DNA of 64,000 nt from Ignavibacterium sp. (GTDB lineage: Bacteria; Bacteroidota; Ignavibacteria; Ignavibacteriales; Ignavibacteriaceae), in contig JANWVQ010000091.1 of the NCBI GenBank assembly GCA_025056745.1, forward strand, positions 60,864 through 124,863. The letters run 5' to 3'. A program made the position numbers and the translations under genes. The notes beneath the pieces are model-generated. The model had not been told where the DNA came from. It saw only the letters and a list, made by a program, of their open reading frames with translations, and did not search any database. Positions 39,592 through 56,010 of the stretch are shown here, in pieces (within the stretch, counting starts at the first letter, position 1; each line of letters starts with the position of its first letter).

Positions 39592-42500
39592 ATGGAAAGA
39601 AAAAAAGTAACAATAGATGGTAATGAAGCCGCTGCGTATGTGGCTTTTCATACTAATGAAGTTATTGCAATATATCCTATTACCCCATCTTCAAATATGG
39701 CTGAGTGGTGTGATGCTTGGTCAGCAGCAGGAATGAAAAACATTTGGGGAGTTACTCCAACTGTTACAGAACTTCAAAGTGAAGGCGGAGCCGCTGGGGC
39801 TGTACACGGTTCATTACAAAGCGGAGCGCTTACAACTACATTCACTGCTGCTCAAGGATTGTTGTTAATGATCCCTAATATGTACAAAATTGCTGGTGAA
39901 TTAACGCCAACAGTATTCCACGTCTCTGCTCGGTCAATTGCTGCTCAGGCACTTTCAATATTCGGTGATCATTCAGATGTTATGGCAGTTAGACAAACAG
40001 GATTTGCACTTCTATCCTCTGGTTCTGTTCAGGAGGTAATGGACTTTGCTCTTATAGCTCAAGCATCAACATTGGAGTCAAGGATTCCTTTCTTACACTT
40101 TTTTGACGGTTTTAGAACTTCACACGAAGTTATGAAAATTGAAGAGTTGACAAAAGATGATATGAGATTTATGCTAAACGATGATTTAATTATTGCCCAT
40201 AGAAATCGAGCTCTATCTCCAGACCATCCTGTAATCAGGGGAACAGCACAAAATCCAGATGTTTATTTTCAAGGTAGAGAAACTGTAAATCCATTTTATC
40301 TTGCTTGTCCTAACATAGTCCAAAAACAAATGGATAAGTTCGCACAGCTTACAGGAAGACAATATAAACTATTTGAATATGTTGGACATCCCGAAGCTGA
40401 AAGAATAATAATCTTAATGGGTTCTGCTACTCAAACAGTTGAAGAAACAGTTGATTATTTGGTTTCCAAAGGAGAAAAAGTTGGAGCAATCAAAGTTAGA
40501 TTATATAGGCCATTTTCAGTTGAACACTTCATTAATTCAATTCCTAAGTCAGTTAAATCAATTGCTGTATTAGATAGATGCAAGGAGCCGGGAAGTGCTG
40601 GTGAACCTCTGTATTTGGACGTGGTAAATGCAATTTCAGAAAAATATATTAATGGCGAGTTGAATTTTGCTTTCCCGAAAATAGTTGGTGGAAGATACGG
40701 ACTTTCATCAAAAGAATTTACCCCAGGAATGGTTAAAGCAATTTTCGATAACTTGTCATTAGAAAAACCTAAAAATCATTTTACTATAGGAATTATAGAT
40801 GATGTTACTAATACAAGTTTAGAATACGATCCGAATTTCTCTGTTGAAGATCCTTTAACTTTCAGGGGTAAATTTTATGGACTTGGTGCTGATGGAACTG
40901 TTGGTGCTAACAAGAACTCGATTAAAATTATTGGTGAAGGAACAGATTATTACGCTCAGGGATATTTTGTTTATGACTCGAAAAAGTCAGGTTCAATAAC
41001 AGTATCGCATTTAAGATTTGGCCCTAAACCTATAAAGTCAACTTATCTAATAAACAAAGCAAACTTTATAGCCTGTCATCAACAAGTGTTCTTAGAAAAA
41101 CTTGATATGTTACAAGATGCTGTTGAGGGGGCAACATTCTTACTTAATACTCAAGTGCCAAAAGATAAAGTTTGGGATTCATTGCCAGAAAAAGTTCAGC
41201 GTGATTTAATAGAAAAGAAGATGAAGTTCTATATTATTGATGCTTATAAAGTTGCTCAGGAAACAGGTATGGGTGTCAGAATAAATACAACAATGCAAAC
41301 TTGTTTCTTCGCAATTTCAAATATCTTTCCAAAAGAAGAAGCAATTAAACTGATTAAAGATTCGATCAAAAAGACATACGGTGCAAAAGGCGACAAGATT
41401 GTTCAGATGAATTTTGAAGCTGTCGATAAGACTTTAGATAATTTGTTTGAAGTACCTGTGCCAGATAAAATTACAAGTAATATTAAACTTCAACCAGCAA
41501 TTCAAGGTGATGCTCCTGAATTTGTTAGAGAAGTATTAGCAAAAATTATTGAAGGGAAAGGCGATTCAATTCCTGTCAGCAAAATGCCCGTTGATGGAAC
41601 CTTCCCTCTTTCTTCAGCAAGATATGAAAAAAGAAATATTGCATTAGAAGTTCCTGTTTGGGATCCAGAAACTTGTATCCAATGTAACAAATGCGTGATG
41701 GTATGTCCTCACGCTACAATAAGGGCAAAAATATTTACAGAGGATACTGTCAAAAATGCACCTCCAACTTTCAAATACACAAAGTTCAGATCAAAAGATT
41801 ATGGTGATAACTTATTATACTCCTTGCAAGTGGCAGTAGAAGACTGCACTGGTTGTGCATTATGCGTCGATGTATGCCCTGCTAAGAATAAAAAAGAGAC
41901 TCGATTAAAAGCAATAAATATGCAACCACAACTCCCACTTAGGGAGACAGAAAGAATAAACTGGGAATTTTTCTTCAACATACCAGACCTTGATAGAAGA
42001 AAAGTTGCAATAACAAAAGTCAAAGATTCACAATTCTTGCAACCACTGTTTGAATTCTCTGGAGCTTGTGCAGGATGTGGCGAGACTCCTTATGTAAAAT
42101 TAGTTACTCAACTCTTTGGTGATAGAGCCTTAATTGCAAATGCAACAGGTTGTTCATCTATCTATGGTGGTAATTTACCAACTACTCCATATTCAACTGA
42201 TAAGAATGGCAGAGGTCCGACTTGGTCAAATTCACTATTTGAAGATAACGCTGAATTTGGTTATGGATTCAGACTAGCAATTGATAAGCATAATCATCAA
42301 GCAAAAGATTTGTTGATCAAATTAGCGAATGATATAGGTGAAACCCTTGTATCTGAATTAATAAATGCACAACAAAGAGATGAATCAGATATTTATGAGC
42401 AAAGAGAAAGAGTCGAAATTCTAAAGAAAAAATTAAATGAATTATTAAAATCAAATTCCAACGGAAAGAGCGAAGACATTAAACATCTATTAAGCATTGC

Positions 42501-43176
42501 TGATTATCTTGTTAAAAAGAGTGTCTGGATAATTGGTGGTGATGGTTGGGCTTATGACATTGGATATGGAGGATTAGATCACGTTCTTGCAAGTGGAGCA
42601 AACGTTAATATGTTAGTATTAGATACAGAGGTTTATTCAAATACAGGTGGACAAAGCTCCAAAGCGACTCCAAGGGGTGCTGTTGCAAAATTTGCAGCTG
42701 CTGGAAAACCTGCTGGTAAAAAAGACCTTGGCCTAATGGCTATGAGTTATGGTAATGTATATGTTGCTAGGGTTGCTATGGGTGCAAATGATCAGCATAC
42801 ACTTAGAGCTTTCATAGAAGCAGAAGCTTACGAAGGACCTTCGCTAATTATTGCTTATAGTCATTGTATAGCTCACGGAATAAATATGGCTACTGCTATG
42901 AATAATCAAAAAGCTGCGGTTGATTCAGGTTATTGGCCGTTATATAGATACAATCCTGAATTAGCTAAAGAAGGTAAAAATCCATTTAAACTAGAATCAA
43001 AAGGTTTAAAGATTCCATTGAAAGATTACGCATATATGGAAACAAGATATAAGATGTTAACTAAATCTCATCCTGAACTTGCTGAAAAACTTATCAAAGA
43101 AGCTCAGGAAGATGTGATTAGACGATGGAAAGAATATGAAAGAATGGCTGCTTGGGAGCCAGAAAAATCTAATTGA
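39592..43176 (+). CDS. nifJ: pyruvate:ferredoxin (flavodoxin) oxidoreductase
   Basis: 1194 aa; VTIDGNEAAAYVAFHTNEVIAIYPITPSSNMAEW; two 4Fe-4S clusters (CIQCNKCVMVCPH, CTGCALCVDVCPA); TPP domain GDGWAYDIGYGGLDHVLASGANVNMLVLDTEVYSNTGGQSSKATPRGAVAKFAAAGK. Confidence 0.98.
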   Translation: MERKKVTIDGNEAAAYVAFHTNEVIAIYPITPSSNMAEWCDAWSAAGMKNIWGVTPTVTELQSEGGAAGAVHGSLQSGALTTTFTAAQGLLLMIPNMYKIAGELTPTVFHVSARSIAAQALSIFGDHSDVMAVRQTGFALLSSGSVQEVMDFALIAQASTLESRIPFLHFFDGFRTSHEVMKIEELTKDDMRFMLNDDLIIAHRNRALSPDHPVIRGTAQNPDVYFQGRETVNPFYLACPNIVQKQMDKFAQLTGRQYKLFEYVGHPEAERIIILMGSATQTVEETVDYLVSKGEKVGAIKVRLYRPFSVEHFINSIPKSVKSIAVLDRCKEPGSAGEPLYLDVVNAISEKYINGELNFAFPKIVGGRYGLSSKEFTPGMVKAIFDNLSLEKPKNHFTIGIIDDVTNTSLEYDPNFSVEDPLTFRGKFYGLGADGTVGANKNSIKIIGEGTDYYAQGYFVYDSKKSGSITVSHLRFGPKPIKSTYLINKANFIACHQQVFLEKLDMLQDAVEGATFLLNTQVPKDKVWDSLPEKVQRDLIEKKMKFYIIDAYKVAQETGMGVRINTTMQTCFFAISNIFPKEEAIKLIKDSIKKTYGAKGDKIVQMNFEAVDKTLDNLFEVPVPDKITSNIKLQPAIQGDAPEFVREVLAKIIEGKGDSIPVSKMPVDGTFPLSSARYEKRNIALEVPVWDPETCIQCNKCVMVCPHATIRAKIFTEDTVKNAPPTFKYTKFRSKDYGDNLLYSLQVAVEDCTGCALCVDVCPAKNKKETRLKAINMQPQLPLRETERINWEFFFNIPDLDRRKVAITKVKDSQFLQPLFEFSGACAGCGETPYVKLVTQLFGDRALIANATGCSSIYGGNLPTTPYSTDKNGRGPTWSNSLFEDNAEFGYGFRLAIDKHNHQAKDLLIKLANDIGETLVSELINAQQRDESDIYEQRERVEILKKKLNELLKSNSNGKSEDIKHLLSIADYLVKKSVWIIGGDGWAYDIGYGGLDHVLASGANVNMLVLDTEVYSNTGGQSSKATPRGAVAKFAAAGKPAGKKDLGLMAMSYGNVYVARVAMGANDQHTLRAFIEAEAYEGPSLIIAYSHCIAHGINMATAMNNQKAAVDSGYWPLYRYNPELAKEGKNPFKLESKGLKIPLKDYAYMETRYKMLTKSHPELAEKLIKEAQEDVIRRWKEYERMAAWEPEKSN

Positions 43177-43214
43177 TGATTTCATAAGGAAATAAAATAA
43201 CAAAGGAAATTAAA

Positions 43215-44204
43215 ATGGATATTACAACAACTTATCTTGGATTGAAGTTAAAGTCACCGATAGTTCCTTCTGCAGGTCCTTTATCGGAAAAGATTTCAAA
43301 TATTAGGGAAATGGAAGATGCTGGTGCTGGTGCAGTTGTTTTATACTCAATTTTTGAAGAGCAAATTGAACACGAACAGTTTGAACTCGACTATCATACT
43401 TCAATACATTCAGAAAGCTATGCAGAAGCAACTAGTTACTTCCCAGAGCCATTTGAATTCAAAGCAGGACCAGAGGAATATCTAGAACACATTAGAAAAG
43501 CTAAAGAAGCTGTCAACATTCCGATCATTGCAAGTCTTAATGGAAAATCCTTAGGTGGATGGACTGAGTATGCAAAATTAATCGAGCAGGCTGGTGCAGA
43601 CGCATTAGAGTTAAACATTTATATCCTCCCTACTGATATTCATAAATCCGGAAATGCAGTTGAACAAATGTATATTGATATAATTAAAGCAGTGAGGTCT
43701 TCAGTAAAAATTCCAATAGCAGTAAAAATGCATCCATTTTTCACATCAACTGCTAATGTTGCATCTAATTTCGTTAAGGCTGGTGCAAATGGTTTAGTTT
43801 TATTCAACAGATTTTATCAACCGGATATTGATTTAGAAAAATTAGAAGTTGTTCCAAATGTTCTACTTAGTACACCGATGGCGATGCGATTACCTTTAAG
43901 ATGGATTGCTATTCTTTATAATAGAGTTAATGCGGATTTAGCTGCTACAAGTGGTATTTATAATGCTTCAGATGTTATAAAAATGATAATGGCTGGAGCA
44001 AAAGTTACTCAAATGCTATCTTGTTTATTAAAATTTGGAATATCTCATATTGCTGATGTAATTTCAGAAATGAAAACTTGGATGGAAGAAAAAGAATATG
44101 AATCTCTATCGATGATGCGCGGTAGTATGAGTTATATGAATGTTGATGACCCTTCAAAATTTGAACGCGCAAACTATATGAAAATCCTTCATTCTTATAA
44201 ATAA
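43215..44204 (+). CDS. dihydroorotate dehydrogenase-like protein
   Basis: TTYLGLKLKSPIVPSAGPLSEKISNIREMEDAGAGAVVLYSIFEEQI; ADALELNIY; IPIAVKMHPFF. Confidence 0.9.
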   Translation: MDITTTYLGLKLKSPIVPSAGPLSEKISNIREMEDAGAGAVVLYSIFEEQIEHEQFELDYHTSIHSESYAEATSYFPEPFEFKAGPEEYLEHIRKAKEAVNIPIIASLNGKSLGGWTEYAKLIEQAGADALELNIYILPTDIHKSGNAVEQMYIDIIKAVRSSVKIPIAVKMHPFFTSTANVASNFVKAGANGLVLFNRFYQPDIDLEKLEVVPNVLLSTPMAMRLPLRWIAILYNRVNADLAATSGIYNASDVIKMIMAGAKVTQMLSCLLKFGISHIADVISEMKTWMEEKEYESLSMMRGSMSYMNVDDPSKFERANYMKILHSYK

Positions 44205-47575: not shown

Positions 47576-48055
47576 ATGCACGAGAAAATATTTGAAAACT
47601 ACCAGCCAAACGATAGAAGTAGTTTAATTCCTTTACTTCAAGATGTTCAAAATATTTATGGATATTTACCAGAAAATGCACTGAGAGATATTTCTGATTT
47701 TGTCGGTGTTCCTTTGAGCAGAGTTTATGGTGTAGCAACTTTTTATAATCAATTCAGATTAACTCCTCTGGGAAAAAACATTATTCGAGTCTGTAGAGGA
47801 ACTGCTTGTCACGTAAAAAATTCTGCGAATATACTCTATGCGTTAGAAAATGAACTTAAAATTAAAGCGGGAGAAACAACTCGCGATAAGCAGTTCACAT
47901 TAGAAGTAGTTAATTGTATCGGTGCTTGTTCAATTGCACCAGTGATACTTGTTAATGAAGACTATCACGGTAGAATAACAGTAAAAGATATTCCAAAGAT
48001 TTTGAAAAAATATCAGACAATAAAGAAAACTGATAAAGCAGAGGTAACAGAATGA
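47576..48055 (+). CDS. hydC: NADH-dependent [FeFe] hydrogenase, NuoE-like subunit
   Basis: 2Fe-2S motif VCRGTACHVKNSANIL...VVNCIGACSIAPVILVNEDYHGRI; followed by HydB- and HydA-like genes. Confidence 0.9.
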   Translation: MHEKIFENYQPNDRSSLIPLLQDVQNIYGYLPENALRDISDFVGVPLSRVYGVATFYNQFRLTPLGKNIIRVCRGTACHVKNSANILYALENELKIKAGETTRDKQFTLEVVNCIGACSIAPVILVNEDYHGRITVKDIPKILKKYQTIKKTDKAEVTE

Positions 48056-50037
48056 AAAACTTTGATCAATTATGTTGTGAAAAATGTTGGCATACTCCAC
48101 AAACACCTTGTGAACATTTTATTCAATGTTGCACTGAAGGACCACTTTGCCACAACGATGAAAAGTGCAGAATAGAAATTTCCTCTTTAAGAAAAAGATT
48201 AAGATACGAAGAGCACGATAAACCAATTATTATAATCGGAATGGGAACTTGTGGTCTTGCTTCAGGTGCAGGTAAGGTAAAAGAAACAATCTTAGAGGAA
48301 TTGAAGAAATTAAACATTGATGCCATAGTCGAATCGACAGGATGTATTGGATATTGTGCAGTTGAACCAATTGTGGATGTAAAACTTCCTGGTGAGGACA
48401 GAGTTTCTTATTGTGAAATAGTTCCCAAATTAGTTCCAAAATTTTTACAAACAGTTCTTGTTGAAAAGAAAATTTTTAAGGAAAAACTTTTAGGAACTCA
48501 CGGGAAAAGTAATCAAGATGCAAAGAACATAAATGAAATTCCTTTCTTCGAGTTTCAGAGAAAAATTGTTTTATCTAACTGTGGAATAATTAATCCTGAT
48601 TCTATTGATACTTATTTAGCTTATGGTGGCTTTAAAGCTTTTGACAAGGTTATTAGATTAATGAAACCCGAAGAGGTAATTAAAGAAATTTCAATAAGCG
48701 GTTTACGTGGAAGAGGTGGCGGTGGATTTCCAACTGGTAAAAAGTGGGAGCTTGCATTCAAGCAAAAAGCTGAGCAAAAATATTTAATATGTAATGCTGA
48801 TGAAGGTGATCCTGGAGCTTTTATGGATCGTTCTTTGCTTGAAAGCGATCCGTTCAGAGTTATAGAAGGAATGATGATTGCTGCTTATGCTATTGGAGCC
48901 TCTCAAGCTTATATTTATTGCCGTGCTGAATATCCTCTTGCTATTGAAAAGCTTCAGAATGCAATTAACCTTTGTGAAAGATATGGAATTCTTGGTGATA
49001 ACATTCTCAATAAAGGATTTTCACTTCATATAAAAATAAAAAAAGGCGCCGGTGCTTTCGTCTGTGGTGAAGAAACTGCTTTGATAGCTTCAATAGAGGG
49101 CAAACGTGGAATGCCAAGACCTCGTCCACCTTATCCAGTAGAATCTGGTCTTTGGGGCAAACCAACAGTTATTAATAACGTTGAAACTTTCGCAAACGTC
49201 CCACCAATAATTTTGATGGGTGGACAAGAGTTCGCAAAAATCGGAACAGAAAAATCTAAAGGCACAAAAGTTTTCGCTCTAAGTGGAAATGTCAAAAATA
49301 CGGGCCTGGTTGAAGTTCCAATGGGTATTACTCTTGGAGATGTAGTATTTAAGATCGGTGGAGGAATTCCTGATGGTAAAAAATTTAAAGCCGTTCAAAT
49401 AGGTGGACCTTCAGGCGGTTGTATCCCTGAACATTTAATAGATACTCCGGTAGATTATGAATCTCTAAAGGAAATTGGAGCAATGATGGGTTCTGGTGGC
49501 TTTGTTGTAATGGATGAGGATACTTGTATGGTTGATGTTGCAAAATATTTTCTGACATTTATTCAACAAGAAAGTTGTGGTAAATGCGTCCCTTGCCGTG
49601 AAGGTACAAAAAGAATGTTAGAGATAATCGAAAGAATTCCTCAAAGATATGCTTCAGGAAAAGATAAGAATGAACAACTTTTAAGATTTAAAGGAATGAT
49701 TTATCTCCAAAGATTGGCTGATGTTATTAAAGATACTTCTCTTTGTGGTTTAGGACAATCTGCACCAAATCCTGTATTATCAGGTTTGAAATATTTTCGT
49801 GAAGAATATGAAGAACATTTATACGATAGAAAATGCTCTGCTGGAGTTTGTAAAGAACTTCTCACATTTTCAATTGATAATGAGAAATGCACTGGTTGTG
49901 GCTTATGTCTAAGAAAATGTTCTGTTGAGGCTATTGTAGGTGAAAAAGGTCAAGCACATTACATCCTTGATGAAAAATGTGTTAAATGTGGAATGTGTGT
50001 TGAAACTTGTCGTTTCGATGCGATTAACGTTAATTAA
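48052..50037 (+). CDS. hydB: NADH-dependent [FeFe] hydrogenase, NuoF-like subunit
   Basis: GLRGRGGGGFPTGKKWE; CNADEGDPGAFMDRSLLESDP; ESCGKCVPCREGT; C-terminal 2x[4Fe-4S] CTGCGLCLRKC, CVKCGMCVETC; Cys-rich N-terminal extension. Confidence 0.94.
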   Translation: MKNFDQLCCEKCWHTPQTPCEHFIQCCTEGPLCHNDEKCRIEISSLRKRLRYEEHDKPIIIIGMGTCGLASGAGKVKETILEELKKLNIDAIVESTGCIGYCAVEPIVDVKLPGEDRVSYCEIVPKLVPKFLQTVLVEKKIFKEKLLGTHGKSNQDAKNINEIPFFEFQRKIVLSNCGIINPDSIDTYLAYGGFKAFDKVIRLMKPEEVIKEISISGLRGRGGGGFPTGKKWELAFKQKAEQKYLICNADEGDPGAFMDRSLLESDPFRVIEGMMIAAYAIGASQAYIYCRAEYPLAIEKLQNAINLCERYGILGDNILNKGFSLHIKIKKGAGAFVCGEETALIASIEGKRGMPRPRPPYPVESGLWGKPTVINNVETFANVPPIILMGGQEFAKIGTEKSKGTKVFALSGNVKNTGLVEVPMGITLGDVVFKIGGGIPDGKKFKAVQIGGPSGGCIPEHLIDTPVDYESLKEIGAMMGSGGFVVMDEDTCMVDVAKYFLTFIQQESCGKCVPCREGTKRMLEIIERIPQRYASGKDKNEQLLRFKGMIYLQRLADVIKDTSLCGLGQSAPNPVLSGLKYFREEYEEHLYDRKCSAGVCKELLTFSIDNEKCTGCGLCLRKCSVEAIVGEKGQAHYILDEKCVKCGMCVETCRFDAINVN

Positions 50038-50164: not shown

Positions 50165-51892
50165 ATGGTTCAATTAACTATAAATGGTATTAAAGTAAAC
50201 GCAGAAGAAGGAATGACAATTCTTGACGCCGCTAAATCAGTTGGAATAACAATTCCTACTTTATGCCATATGAAAAATCTTATTCCAACTGGTGCTTGTA
50301 GAATTTGCTCAGTTGAAGTAGAAGGATTTAAAGGACTGACACCAGCTTGTGCTTATCCAGTATCTGAAGGAATGGTAGTTGAAACAGACTCACCTCGCGT
50401 AAGAAGAGCAAGGAAAACTATTGTTGAACTATTAATTGAAAATCATCCTCAAGATTGCCTGATCTGTGTTAGAAATAAAAATTGTGAACTTCAGGATTTA
50501 TCTGAAAGATATGGAGTTAGAGAGCATCGTTATGTTGGAGAGACGAAATCTCACGCAATTGATATATCAAGTGCCTCTATGGAACGCGATCCTGCAAAAT
50601 GTATCCTCTGTGGCAGATGTGTTCGTGCTTGCCACGAAGTTCAGAAAATAGGTGCTATTGATTTTACTAAAAGAGGATTCGCTTCAATCGTTACAACACC
50701 TTATAATAAAGGATTAAATGTTAGCGATTGTATTCTATGTGGACAATGCATTCTTGTCTGTCCGACTGCAGCATTGAGAGAAAAAAGTTCTGTCAAAGAA
50801 GTTGCAGCTGCCTTGTATGATAGAAAAAAATACTGCATTGCTCAAGTGGCCCCTGCTGTTCGAGCATCAATTGGTGAGGAATACAATATGCCTTTAGGAA
50901 CAGATGTCACTGGTTTGATAGTTACAGGTCTTCGTCGCCTTGGTTTTAAGAAAGTTTTTGATACAAATTTTGCTGCTGATTTGACAATAATGGAAGAAGC
51001 CTCTGAATTGATTAATAGAATTCAGAATGGTGGCTCTTTACCAATGTTTACAAGCTGTTGCCCAGGTTGGGTCAGATTTGCTGAAATGAACTATCCTGAA
51101 ATTCTCGATCATATTTCAACTTGCAAATCTCCTCACGAAATGGAAGGTGCTGTATTAAAGACTTACTATGCAAGAAAAATGGGAATTGATCCAAAAGACA
51201 TCTTTGTTGTTTCAATAATGCCTTGTACTGTGAAAAAATATGAATCTGCCAGACCTGAATTGAAAGAAAACACTTTGCCAGATGTAGATGCTGTTCTAAC
51301 AACAAGAGAACTTGTTAGATTTTTCAAAATTGCTGGAATAGATTTTAATGATCTTCCTGAGAGCGAATTTGATAATCCTTTAGGTGAGTCAACTGGTGCT
51401 GCCGCTATATTTGGAACAAGTGGTGGTGTGATGGAAGCTGCTTTGAGAACTGCTTATTGGAAATTAACCGGAAAAGACCTTGAAAAACTTGAGTTTGAAC
51501 AGATTCGTGGAATGGATGGTGTTAAAGAAGCAACAGTCAAAATAAACGGAATGGAAATTAATATTGCTGTTGTCAATGGAATTGGAAATGTCAAACAAAT
51601 TATAGATGAAGTTGTTTCTGGAAAATCAAAGCATCATTTTATAGAAGTTATGGCTTGTCCGGGTGGATGTATAAATGGTGGTGGTCAACCGATTCATCAA
51701 AAACCAGAGAAAGTAATGAAGCGTATTAAAGTGCTTTATCAGATTGATGAAAATGCTAAGCACAGGAAATCTTATGAAAATGAATCAGTAAAAACTTTAT
51801 ACAGAGAATTTCTAGGTGAACCTAATTCACATAAGGCGCACGAAATTCTTCATACAGAATATTTTGATAAAAAGAAAATTTTAAGGAATTGA
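50165..51892 (+). CDS. hydA: [FeFe] hydrogenase catalytic subunit (group A, M3-type)
   Basis: H-cluster motifs FTSCCPGW, MPCTVKKYE, EVMACPGGCINGGGQ; N-terminal 2Fe-2S, NHPQDCLICVRNKNCELQ and two 4Fe-4S clusters. Confidence 0.96.
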   Translation: MVQLTINGIKVNAEEGMTILDAAKSVGITIPTLCHMKNLIPTGACRICSVEVEGFKGLTPACAYPVSEGMVVETDSPRVRRARKTIVELLIENHPQDCLICVRNKNCELQDLSERYGVREHRYVGETKSHAIDISSASMERDPAKCILCGRCVRACHEVQKIGAIDFTKRGFASIVTTPYNKGLNVSDCILCGQCILVCPTAALREKSSVKEVAAALYDRKKYCIAQVAPAVRASIGEEYNMPLGTDVTGLIVTGLRRLGFKKVFDTNFAADLTIMEEASELINRIQNGGSLPMFTSCCPGWVRFAEMNYPEILDHISTCKSPHEMEGAVLKTYYARKMGIDPKDIFVVSIMPCTVKKYESARPELKENTLPDVDAVLTTRELVRFFKIAGIDFNDLPESEFDNPLGESTGAAAIFGTSGGVMEAALRTAYWKLTGKDLEKLEFEQIRGMDGVKEATVKINGMEINIAVVNGIGNVKQIIDEVVSGKSKHHFIEVMACPGGCINGGGQPIHQKPEKVMKRIKVLYQIDENAKHRKSYENESVKTLYREFLGEPNSHKAHEILHTEYFDKKKILRN

Positions 51893-51983: not shown

Positions 51984-53963
51984 ATGAGCAACGCAGTAGT
52001 TAGCACAATTAGCGAGAGATGTAAGAGATGTTATTCGTGCATCAGAGAGTGTCCAGCTTCAGCAATAAGAGTTGTTGGTGCGCGCGCACAGGTAATCGAA
52101 GAAAGATGTATTGCTTGTGGTCATTGTGTTAAAGTTTGTTCTCAAGATGCTAAACAAATTCTCTCTGAAATAGATCTAACATTTGAACTTCTTAGAACAA
52201 ATAAAGCTGTAGCAATTGTAGCACCTTCATTTGCAGCATCATTTCCAGATAATTACAAAAAAGTTCCTTCTGCTTTAAGAAGACTCGGATTCATAAAAGT
52301 AATTGAAACTGCATTTGGTGCTGATTTGATTGCGAATTATTATTCCGAAATTCTTCAATCAGAGCCAGAAAAAACAATTATAAGCTCTGCTTGTCCAGCT
52401 GTGGTGAGTTTTATTCAAAAGTATTATGTTGATCTTGTTCCTAATATTGCAAAAGTTGTTTCTCCAATGATTGCTTTGGGTAGATATCTCAAAAATGAAT
52501 TTGGAAATGATATAAAAATTATTTTCATTGGCCCTTGTGTCGCAAAAAAGCAAGAAGCAGTTGAAGATGAGGTTCACGGTACAATTGATGCCGTTTTAAC
52601 TTTTCACGAGTTAAAAGAGATGATCAAAAAAAATGAGATTGATATAAACTCTCTTGAAGAAAGTGAATTCGACCCTCCTCACGCAATGATGGGCAAAGCA
52701 TATTCACTAGCAGGCGGATTATTAAAAACAACTGATATTACTGATGATATTTTGGAAAAAGACATTATTGTGGTTGAAGGAAAGAAAAAAGTTTTAGAAA
52801 TTATAGAAGAAATTGCTCAAAACAATATCAATGCGAAGTTCACAGATATTCTTTTTTGTGAAGGTTGTATTAGTGGTCCTGCTATTGATACAACTTTGAA
52901 TTATTATTCAAGAAGAGAAAAAGTTATTGATTATATCCACGAGAAAATTAATAATGTTGATAAAAGAATTTGGAAAAGTAATTTATACAATGCAAGAAAA
53001 TTAAATCTCACAAGGAACTTCAAAGCTGATAATCAACGCAGACCAATGCCTTCTGAAGACCAGATTAAAGAGATTCTTGCTCAGACGAAAAAGTTTACAC
53101 CAAAGGACGAACTCAACTGTGGAGCTTGTGGTTATGAAACTTGTCGTGAATATGCAATAGCTATAGCTAAAGGACTCGCAGAAAAAGAAATGTGTTTGCC
53201 TTATCTTATTGATGAATTAAGAATTGCTTATGAAAATCTCAGCAATACACAGGAACAATTAAGAATTGCTGAAAAACTTGCATCAATCGGCCAACTTGCT
53301 GCCGGCGTCGCACACGAGATCAATAATCCTCTTGGAACAATTTTGTTATATACTTCAATGTTAAAAAAAGAGCTTGAAAAATATTATAACGATGATCGTT
53401 ACAAAGCTGATCTTGATTTAATTTTAGAGGAAGCGAACAGATGTAAAAACATTGTTTCGAATCTTCTGAACTTTGCTAGACAAGGCAAATTAAATCTTAA
53501 AGAATTTGATATCAAAAAAGCTCTATTGGATACTTTAAAGCCATTTACAGTTAATCCTGCTTATAAGAAGGTAGATTTTATTTTCAATGCAAGTGTTCAA
53601 AATTGTTTAATAGTAGCTGATGAAGATCAGCTTAAACAGGTTTTCATTAACATCGTAAAAAATGCTTGTGACGCTATGATGGAAACAGAAAGGAAATTAT
53701 TAACAGTCAATCTAAATTGTAGTGAAAAAGATGTAACTATTGAGTTTTCCGATACAGGTACAGGTATTGCAAAAGAAAATCAAAGTAAAATATTTACTCC
53801 ATTTTTCACAACCAAAAGCATTGGAAAAGGAACTGGTTTAGGTCTTGCTATATCTTATGGAATTATTAAAATGCATAAAGGAAATATTACTTTTGTATCA
53901 GAATTAGGAAAAGGAACAACATTTAAAATAACTTTACCACGAACTCAATTTTCAAATAATTAA
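51984..53963 (+). CDS. H-cluster-domain sensor histidine kinase (ferredoxin + [FeFe]-hydrogenase-like domain + 4Fe-4S domain + HisKA/HATPase)
   Basis: CKRCYSCIRECPASAI/CIACGHCVKVC; SSACPAVVSFI, FIGPCVAKKQEA, LFCEGCISGPA; NCGACGYETCREYAIAIAKGLAEKEMCLPY; GVAHEINNPLGTI; GTGLGLAISYGII. Confidence 0.92.
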   Translation: MSNAVVSTISERCKRCYSCIRECPASAIRVVGARAQVIEERCIACGHCVKVCSQDAKQILSEIDLTFELLRTNKAVAIVAPSFAASFPDNYKKVPSALRRLGFIKVIETAFGADLIANYYSEILQSEPEKTIISSACPAVVSFIQKYYVDLVPNIAKVVSPMIALGRYLKNEFGNDIKIIFIGPCVAKKQEAVEDEVHGTIDAVLTFHELKEMIKKNEIDINSLEESEFDPPHAMMGKAYSLAGGLLKTTDITDDILEKDIIVVEGKKKVLEIIEEIAQNNINAKFTDILFCEGCISGPAIDTTLNYYSRREKVIDYIHEKINNVDKRIWKSNLYNARKLNLTRNFKADNQRRPMPSEDQIKEILAQTKKFTPKDELNCGACGYETCREYAIAIAKGLAEKEMCLPYLIDELRIAYENLSNTQEQLRIAEKLASIGQLAAGVAHEINNPLGTILLYTSMLKKELEKYYNDDRYKADLDLILEEANRCKNIVSNLLNFARQGKLNLKEFDIKKALLDTLKPFTVNPAYKKVDFIFNASVQNCLIVADEDQLKQVFINIVKNACDAMMETERKLLTVNLNCSEKDVTIEFSDTGTGIAKENQSKIFTPFFTTKSIGKGTGLGLAISYGIIKMHKGNITFVSELGKGTTFKITLPRTQFSNN

Positions 53964-53983
53964 GAATTTAATGAGGGATAAAA

Positions 53984-54391
53984 ATGAGTGATAAAAAGAA
54001 AATACTTTTAGTTGATGATGATCTCGATCTTCTCGAACAAAACAAAATTCTAATTGAATCGAAAGGATATGAGGTGATTACTGCTAACAGTAGCAAAGAA
54101 GGTTGGGAAGTATTCAAAAAATCAAAACCAGATGCTTGTGTGATTGATTTGATAATGGAAGAATATGATTCGGGATTTATTCTTTGTCATAGAATTAAAA
54201 AAGATGAACACGGGAAAGATATTCCTGTTTTTATACTAACCTCCGCAACTTATGATACTGGATTTAAGTTTGATGCTTCAACTAGTGAAGAAAAAGAATG
54301 GATTAGTGCAGATGAAGTTATAAATAAGCCTGTAGTAATTGATGAGTTTGTTCAGAAACTTGAAAATTATTTTGAAATGAAAGGAAAGTAA
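53984..54391 (+). CDS. stand-alone response regulator receiver protein
   Basis: KKKILLVDDDLDLLEQNKILIESKGYEVITANSSKEGWEVFKKSKPDACVIDLIMEEYDSGF; no output domain. Confidence 0.92.
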   Translation: MSDKKKILLVDDDLDLLEQNKILIESKGYEVITANSSKEGWEVFKKSKPDACVIDLIMEEYDSGFILCHRIKKDEHGKDIPVFILTSATYDTGFKFDASTSEEKEWISADEVINKPVVIDEFVQKLENYFEMKGK

Positions 54392-54436
54392 ACTACGCGA
54401 GAGGAACAAGTATAAGCAAATTGATCAATTAAATAA

Positions 54437-54487
54437 ATTGCCACAAAGGGTCAAAGAATCTTAGTGTCTTTGTGTCTTAGTGGCAAT
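54437..54487. repeat. dispersed-repeat-like hairpin element (ATTGCCAC...GTGGCAAT; CTTAGTGTCTTTGTGTCTTAGTGGC)
   Basis: Terminal 8-bp perfect inverted repeat; the core matches a remembered low-complexity 'KTQRH'-encoding repeat seen in many genomes. Confidence 0.6.
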
Positions 54488-54528
54488 TAATTTCTTATCT
54501 TTGTTATCAAACTTACATTCAAAGCAAA

Positions 54529-56010
54529 ATGCAAGAATCAAAGCCGAAAATATTAGTAGTTGATGATGAAAAAGGACTTCGTATTGGTGTGCAAAGACTT
54601 CTTGAAATGGAGGGATATGATGTTGATGTCGCTGAAAATGGGATAGAAGGAATTGAATTAGGAACAAAGAAAGAATATGATTTAGCTATTATTGATCTTA
54701 AAATGCCTGATGTTGAGGGTATTGAGGTGTTAAAAAAAATAAAAGAAAAATATCCTAACACTGTTTGTTTTATTGCTACTGCCTTTGCAAGTTACGATAC
54801 TGCTATTGAAGCAACTAAACTTGGTGCTCAAAGTTATATTCCAAAACCATTCACACCAGAAGAATTGCTCACGGAAATAAAGACTGGTTATCAAAAACGT
54901 CTTCACCTTCTTGAAGAAGATAAATGGCGAAGAGAAAGAGAAGAAAGATTACTTGAGGTTGCCTTTGAAAAAACAAGACTCAATACGATTATAAATTCAA
55001 TAACGGATGGTGTTCTTGTAGTAAATAAAGAAGGACTTGCAGTTCTATTTAATCCTGCAGTTCTTAAATTCCTTGAGCTCGCAGAAATAAAAGTTGAAGA
55101 ATATATTCTTGATAAACTTCGTCCAGAGATATTAGAATTAATAAATAAATTTTTACTTTCTGATTTGAAAGAGAAAAGATCTTACACCATACAAATTGAA
55201 CTCAAACCGAACCGAGAGTTTTTCATCGAAGCAACTGCATCGCCAGTTTTTCATCCGGGTGAAAATCTTGCAGGTGTTGTGATAGTTTTCAAAGATATAA
55301 CTGAACTAAAAAAGATCGAGCTAATTAAGTCCCAATTTGTATCTATGGTTTCTCACGAACTAAAAGCACCAATTGCTGCTGTATATGGATTTCTGAAAAT
55401 TATGAGTGATGAAAAAATTAAACTTACGGAAGAACAGAAGAAAGATTATATAAATCGCTCGATGATTAGACTTGATGGATTACTTAAAATGGTCAATGAT
55501 CTTCTCGATATTTCTCGAATGGAATTAAAAACTATTAAAAAGGAAATTAAAAAAATCCATCTGTCAGAAATAATAAAGAATATTCTTGAACTTTTTCAAA
55601 TTGAAATTCAAAAATCAAATCTCTCAGTTGATTTTGATTACCAGCAAAATGGATTATTTATTAATGCAGATGCAGATGAAATATCGAGATTGTTTACAAA
55701 TATCATTAGTAATGCAATAAAATATAATAGACCCAACGGAAATATTTTCATTAAAATTTCTCAAGTTGGAAACTTCATTCTTACTGAAATTAGAGATACA
55801 GGAATAGGAATGAAAGAAGATGAAAAGAAAAAACTTTTCTCAGAATTCTTTCGAGCGAAAAATGAATTTACAAAAAATGTTAGTGGTACAGGTTTAGGTC
55901 TATCAATTGTAAAAAGAATAGTTGACTCTTACTCGGGCAAAATTGAAGTTGAATCTGAATTCGGCGTTGGAACAAGCTTTAAAATTTACCTGCCAGTTTC
56001 ATTGAGTTAA
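54529..56010 (+). CDS. hybrid REC-PAS-HisKA-HATPase sensor kinase
   Basis: PKILVVDDEKGLRIGVQRLLEMEGYDV...DLAIIDLKMPDVEGIEVLKKIKEKYP; PAS region; MVSHELKAPIAAVYGFLKIM; GTGLGLSIVKRIVDSYSGKIEVES. Confidence 0.95.
   Translation: MQESKPKILVVDDEKGLRIGVQRLLEMEGYDVDVAENGIEGIELGTKKEYDLAIIDLKMPDVEGIEVLKKIKEKYPNTVCFIATAFASYDTAIEATKLGAQSYIPKPFTPEELLTEIKTGYQKRLHLLEEDKWRREREERLLEVAFEKTRLNTIINSITDGVLVVNKEGLAVLFNPAVLKFLELAEIKVEEYILDKLRPEILELINKFLLSDLKEKRSYTIQIELKPNREFFIEATASPVFHPGENLAGVVIVFKDITELKKIELIKSQFVSMVSHELKAPIAAVYGFLKIMSDEKIKLTEEQKKDYINRSMIRLDGLLKMVNDLLDISRMELKTIKKEIKKIHLSEIIKNILELFQIEIQKSNLSVDFDYQQNGLFINADADEISRLFTNIISNAIKYNRPNGNIFIKISQVGNFILTEIRDTGIGMKEDEKKKLFSEFFRAKNEFTKNVSGTGLGLSIVKRIVDSYSGKIEVESEFGVGTSFKIYLPVSLS

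Follow-up and report, generated by a model that had tools for sequence, protein, structure and literature searches.

A probable cytosolic [FeFe]-hydrogenase-type sensor kinase beside a bifurcating-type hydrogenase operon in Ignavibacterium sp.

A 64,000-nt stretch of DNA from Ignavibacterium sp. (contig JANWVQ010000091.1, assembly GCA_025056745.1; here called the window, in whose numbering all positions are given) encodes a 659-aa protein, HydS, downstream of the hydrogenase operon HydC-HydB-HydA. Judged from its sequence, HydS is probably a cytosolic group C-type [FeFe]-hydrogenase sensor kinase of the HydS/BfuT-like type that regulates the adjacent operon. The cassette comprises a fully soluble sensor with two likely phospho-partners adjacent to it. 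The order HydA-HydS-REC-REC/PAS/HK (REC, receiver; HK, histidine kinase) recurs across about 20 phyla, which is new here. Also new is the state of the maturases: HydE and HydG are undetectable in this genome, though congeners carry them at this locus, and HydF is eroding.

Domain build and H-cluster pocket of HydS

An earlier note on this DNA had described a 659-aa kinase, a receiver and a REC-PAS-kinase, and all three open reading frames (ORFs) were found at the coordinates in Table 1. It had read the first as a 2x[4Fe-4S] ferredoxin, an H-domain, a CxxC-x4-C [4Fe-4S] domain and a HisKA/HATPase kinase. This build was borne out by Pfam, which places in order a Fer4 pair, Fe_hyd_lg_C (8.6e-58; residues 74-299), FeS PF04060 (6e-11; residues 377-406), HisKA (2.5e-15) and HATPase_c (6.4e-26). 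Sixteen of the 20 Cys fall into the expected sets, namely eight in the ferredoxin, four in the H-cluster (137, 185, 292, 295) and four in the C-terminal cluster (379, 382, 387, 404). Foldseek on the AlphaFold2 model matched the front half to solved [FeFe] hydrogenases and the kinase part to ZraS. Pfam gave no PAS match after the C-terminal cluster of HydS, and in the model a helix leads directly into HisKA. The claimed lack of a transmembrane (TM) helix also agrees with the hydropathy scan, in which every 19-aa window of HydS stayed below a Kyte-Doolittle mean of 1.6. No TM-typical peak was seen in HydS, the receiver or the REC-PAS-kinase, and a control ATP-synthase subunit shows one. Chance origin of the 659-aa architecture is excluded because full-length orthologues were found across the order.

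The H-domain retains four Cys (C137, C185, C292, C295) equivalent to C300, C355, C499 and C503 of CpI, and K188, the equivalent of K358, the lysine contacting cyanide. The pocket carries Ala136 at C299, Gly183 at M353, Leu at M497 and Tyr at F417. Relative to the adjacent HydA, TSCCPGW has become SSACPAV, MPCTVKK has become GPCVAKK and CxxxC has become CxxC, as the earlier note had described. Its proposal of a group C-like pocket is supported as well. The substitutions match published changes in the HydS of Thermotoga maritima (TmHydS). Among 102 HK-fused relatives, the four H-cluster Cys, the K358-equivalent Lys, the C-terminal cluster Cys and the phospho-His are invariant. The M353 position is Gly in every one of the 102, Cys never occurs at C299 (0/102; the residues there are T, D, S, P, A or N), and the L3 spacing is CxxC in all except one (101/102). 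The substitutions as a peculiarity of this protein were also considered and rejected, as they are clade-wide. The clade overall is best read as H2/redox sensors with an H-cluster; at the level of the clade, sensing of H2 is plausible, but for this organism it is unproven.

It is highly improbable that HydS is mainly catalytic, an auxiliary hydrogenase with an incidental kinase part. TmHydS and the HydS of Thermoanaerobacter mathranii (TamHydS) do retain low hydrogenase activity (PMC10055695, PMC8163306), but the phospho-His and other kinase residues are invariant in the alignment, the linker spacing keeps to heptads and conserved receivers adjoin the gene.

HK-fused group C3 proteins beside bifurcating HydABC have been reported from Hydrogenedentota and Caldithrix abyssi (WP_006928132.1) as BfuT of the sub-type V BfuTABC clusters (PMC11406978). 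This is the closest published system, with an H-domain-histidine kinase fusion beside a bifurcating-type HydABC, likewise found here. Phylogeny parts HydS from group A and places the Hydrogenedentota loci L151 and L161 within the 88-row set holding the query; these loci share a clade with HydS. The order here is HydC-B-A-HydS-REC-REC/PAS/HK, whereas the main text of that paper names neither a receiver nor a REC-PAS-kinase next to the cluster, and neither a linker rule nor a loss of maturases. TmHydS and TamHydS were compared through the motifs given in the papers. TmHydS (group C; PMC10055695) has the same 2x[4Fe-4S], H-domain and C-terminal cluster, with Ala at C299, Gly at M353 and Tyr at F417, but it ends in PAS and has Ser at M497, where HydS has Leu and is followed directly by HisKA/HATPase. 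TamHydS (group D; PMC8163306, PMC13104023) shares the cluster layout including CX2CX4CX16C and the Leu at M497; it differs in having Ser at M353 and no fused PAS or kinase. The C-terminal cluster has been described as a feature that unites groups C and D (PMC13104023), and PAS is not present in every published group C protein (PMC11406978). Since HydS has no PAS, and this mark of TmHydS is not universal in group C, it is filed with the HK-fused BfuT kind and not with the TmHydS type. As far as could be tested, HydS is a member of that kind rather than a new one.

Cassette, linker and phosphorelay

Relatives were collected from one genome per species (84,980 species), which gave at least 581, of which the best 80 were kept. 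Among these 80, 74 are HK-fused, from about 20 phyla by record titles and the origin labels of the tree. HydA lies at most two genes upstream in 57 of the 71 HK-fused loci with sequence on that side, and a receiver adjoins HydS in 57 of the 70 with sequence there. A REC-PAS-HK-like gene stands at most three genes downstream in 67 of the 70 with downstream sequence. This order supports the signalling through the adjacent receiver and REC-PAS-kinase that had been claimed, although the partners themselves are putative. The receiver keeps every canonical residue and lacks an output domain, and the 493-aa protein is a REC-PAS-HisKA-HATPase, both as the earlier note had it. Phospho-site residues are invariant in 43 receiver orthologues, and D56 and His276 of the REC-PAS-kinase are invariant in 40 orthologues except for one D-to-E. 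The absence of a DNA-binding regulator from the window, also claimed, holds for the window proteins examined; not every ORF was scanned. In one otherwise conserved cluster (L102, genome G221), HydS is split from HydA by four ORFs.

The spacing between the C-terminal cluster and the phospho-His follows a strict rule. The distance from Cys404 to His444 is only 33, 40, 47 or 54 in 103 of 103 sequences, a heptad series. All 39 Ignavibacteria sequences have 40, the 64 others have 47, 40, 33 or 54, and the distance changed at least six times on the tree, always in one heptad register. The Cys spacing of the cluster, CX2CX4CX16C, is identical in all aligned rows. In the AlphaFold2 model (mean pLDDT 86), residues 405-467 form one helix, much of it at lower confidence (about 52-81 per block of ten). 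Heptad-locked linkers in other kinases mark continuous coiled coils (PMC6798134). The C-terminal Fe-S domain therefore seems to stand in place of the usual PAS input. The heptad spacing together with the single predicted helix is new here. The rule predicts which insertions should break or restore the sensor.

In the proposed mechanism, electrons supplied by H2 or by the ferredoxin/NADH pool would alter the state of the H-domain and the cluster chain. The C-terminal [4Fe-4S], with its final ligand Cys404 at the base of the continuous helix, would pass this change to His444 as a coiled-coil movement. The kinase would then phosphorylate the adjacent receiver and/or the REC of the REC-PAS-kinase, as the conserved gene order and intact phospho-sites suggest, and the REC-PAS-kinase may relay to a regulator elsewhere in the genome.

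Several points weigh against this reading. The missing HydE and HydG weaken its H2 part in this organism. Genomes G243 and G244 (loci L109/L110) retain REC and REC-PAS-HK beside HydA without HydS, so a relay that lacks this sensor is possible. The earlier note had said that an ordinary, already characterised H2-sensor subfamily would speak against its claim, and half of this applies: HK-fused C3 proteins beside HydABC are published (PMC11406978), but no biochemistry on any HK-fused [FeFe] member was found in the literature searched.

Maturases HydE, HydF and HydG

HydE and HydG were not detected in this genome, a 185-contig assembly in which gaps are possible; HydF is present on contig C67. 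In the congeners G222 and single-contig G223, this same locus contains HydE and HydG together with HydF and a lyase-family gene (PF00206) that probably encodes an ammonia lyase. The HydF of this organism is 47% identical to that of G223, and its HydA is 95% identical. In addition, conserved HydF motif residues are lost (ACTHH to LCIDH, HCGGC to QCNCC). Erosion of HydF is milder in G217 and G218 and is not seen in G132. H2 sensing needs an H-cluster, and canonical HydEFG assembly cannot be shown here because HydE and HydG were not detected and HydF is eroded. The state of these maturases undermines, for this organism, the H2 sensing proposed in the earlier note. Three readings are left: proteins that work without [2Fe], genes missed by the assembly, or another maturation route.

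Across the order, PF02906 was found in 99 of 113 genomes and HydG in 52 of those 99, so that about half of the [FeFe]-bearing genomes are without HydG. These include the single-contig genomes G132, G217, G221 (rated 90% complete) and G124. On the HydA tree the HydG state switched 11 times, and supported branches force at least six of these changes. H-cluster motif columns are equally conserved with and without HydG. The ratio of nonsynonymous to synonymous substitution rates (dN/dS) is 0.01-0.06 for HydA and 0.04-0.11 for HydS, with several dS values near saturation. Decay of HydS and HydA to non-functional proteins after loss of the maturases was considered and rejected on these ratios (0.01-0.11, no relaxed constraint). 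The f1 genomes tested lack HydE too, and in some HydG-less genomes the HydF that is left is eroding (G000 contigs C96 and C67; L090:2067-7446; order-wide). In the sources searched, to which subscription papers did not belong, the literature on HydG-less [FeFe] genomes came to a passage on missed hydG in clostridia (PMC9431212) and none on Ignavibacteria. Melioribacter roseus ferments with H2 production (PMC3534657). From its fused NuoEF and gene order, the HydG-bearing relative G188 is probably this species, and the fermentation thus points to real H2 metabolism in at least one HydG-bearing relative.

Because HydE and HydG were not detected, the H-domain may here hold the [4Fe-4S] part only and read redox state rather than H2. 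It is quite possible, if short of probable, that this is so in HydG-less genomes generally, with HydS reading the [4Fe-4S] redox state and HydABC working without making H2. The undetected HydE and HydG, the diverged HydF with its lost motif residues and the absence of HydG from the four single-contig genomes named above argue for it. Against this, HydA C299, M353, K358 and M497 and HydS K188, which are chiefly relevant to [2Fe], are unchanged in HydG-less genomes, and both proteins are without relaxed constraint. It is rather unlikely that HydS is an ordinary, complete H2 sensor whose organism has hydE and hydG, missed by the 185-contig assembly. The assembly is indeed 2.74 Mb, against 3.57 Mb for G223, which has both genes; but it is unbroken through the locus, where other genes stand, HydF is moved and eroded, marker completeness is 99.83%, and closed relatives are also without hydE and hydG.

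A full H-cluster made by another route, in which HydE and HydG would be replaced by some unknown maturase or by a [2Fe] precursor that the cell takes up, is unlikely. In its favour, the pocket stays conserved along long branches that lack HydG, among them a supported clade in which all six genomes are HydG-less, and apo-hydrogenases accept a synthetic [2Fe] precursor (PMC8163306). However, no candidate gene was found, and slow-evolving sites could be fixed for structural reasons. Slightly more doubtful still is the specific proposal that HydG-less Ignavibacteria, this one included, load working [2Fe] into both HydA and HydS by an unknown maturation enzyme or by capture of a precursor from neighbouring cells. 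The HydG-less genomes are natural knock-outs and raise the question of whether a conserved H-cluster pocket depends on the known maturation pathway at all.

Locus features and related H-domain proteins

Table 1. Features of the hydrogenase-sensor locus in the window
Feature	Position	Strand	Basis
1194-aa pyruvate:ferredoxin oxidoreductase (POR)-like gene and dihydroorotate dehydrogenase (DHOD)-like gene	39592..44204	+	POR name from sequence alone
HydC/NuoE-like [2Fe-2S] thioredoxin-fold subunit	47576..48055	+	PF01257 5.2e-53
HydB/NuoF-like flavin subunit, N-terminal CCxxC domain, C-terminal 2x[4Fe-4S]	48052..50037	+	PF01512, PF10589, Fer4; NF040902
HydA, group A (A3/A6) NADH-linked [FeFe]-hydrogenase catalytic subunit, canonical H-cluster motifs	50165..51892	+	NF040763, motifs
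HydS-type sensor kinase, 659 aa: 2x[4Fe-4S] ferredoxin, H-domain, [4Fe-4S] domain, HisKA, HATPase	51984..53963	+	
Cys137, counterpart of H-cluster ligand C300, preceded by Ala136 in place of proton-shuttle C299	52392..52394	+	Alignment
C-terminal cluster motif CX2CX4CX16C (Cys379, 382, 387, 404)	53118..53195	+	PF04060
Continuous signalling helix (predicted), residues 405-467, with phospho-acceptor His444	53196..53384	+	AlphaFold2 model, heptad-series spacing
Stand-alone receiver, 135 aa (D11, D12, D55, T86, K115)	53984..54391	+	PF00072
REC-PAS-HisKA-HATPase kinase, 493 aa (REC D56, His276)	54529..56010	+	Pfam

The bifurcating-type hydrogenase claimed upstream was confirmed, with HydA scoring 879.9 bits against the group A6 model NF040763 (curated cut-off 765) at the end of the order HydC-HydB-HydA. 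The POR-like and DHOD-like genes adjoin shared GNAT-like/FkbH/ACP genes, at the spot of hydE-hydG-ammonia lyase-hydF in G223. A maturase gene lies inside the locus in 23 of the 74 HK-fused loci. In HK-fused loci, the gene of about 210-240 aa that precedes HydC was Rex-like in 5 of 5 cases, and no Rex-like gene stands ahead of HydC in this window. In most relatives of the order the cluster runs on and includes a third receiver as well as a second NuoE-NuoF-HydA' set, often joined by another kinase. A second hydrogenase set, NuoF'-HydA' (with TSCSPGW) followed by a membrane kinase, was found on another contig of this genome (L002, contig C161).

On the tree the HK-fused proteins form one radiation, with a kinase-less Bacteroidota branch nested inside, and several loci of that branch contain a SpoIIE-type phosphatase gene. 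The H-domain proteins of L054 (SpoIIE-linked), L061 (fused to a methyl-accepting chemotaxis protein) and L060 (hybrid kinase) belong to the same family and have outputs that resemble HydDB C3, C2 and C1 (PMC5037454); they differ from HydS in these output modules, and L060 and L061 form a separate long-branched pair. At L060:768-9359 a 1348-aa H-domain-PAS-HK-REC-Hpt hybrid kinase lies near an extended HydG-like radical SAM protein of 580 aa. At L061:7953-10265 the H-domain is joined to the signalling domain of a methyl-accepting chemotaxis protein, a chemotactic form resembling C2. Most kinase-less H-domain forms have lost the K358-equivalent Lys. The Bacteroidota loci L142, L159, L165, L183, L186, L189, L192, L194 and L207 have a second, kinase-less H-domain protein, in several cases beside a SpoIIE-like gene.

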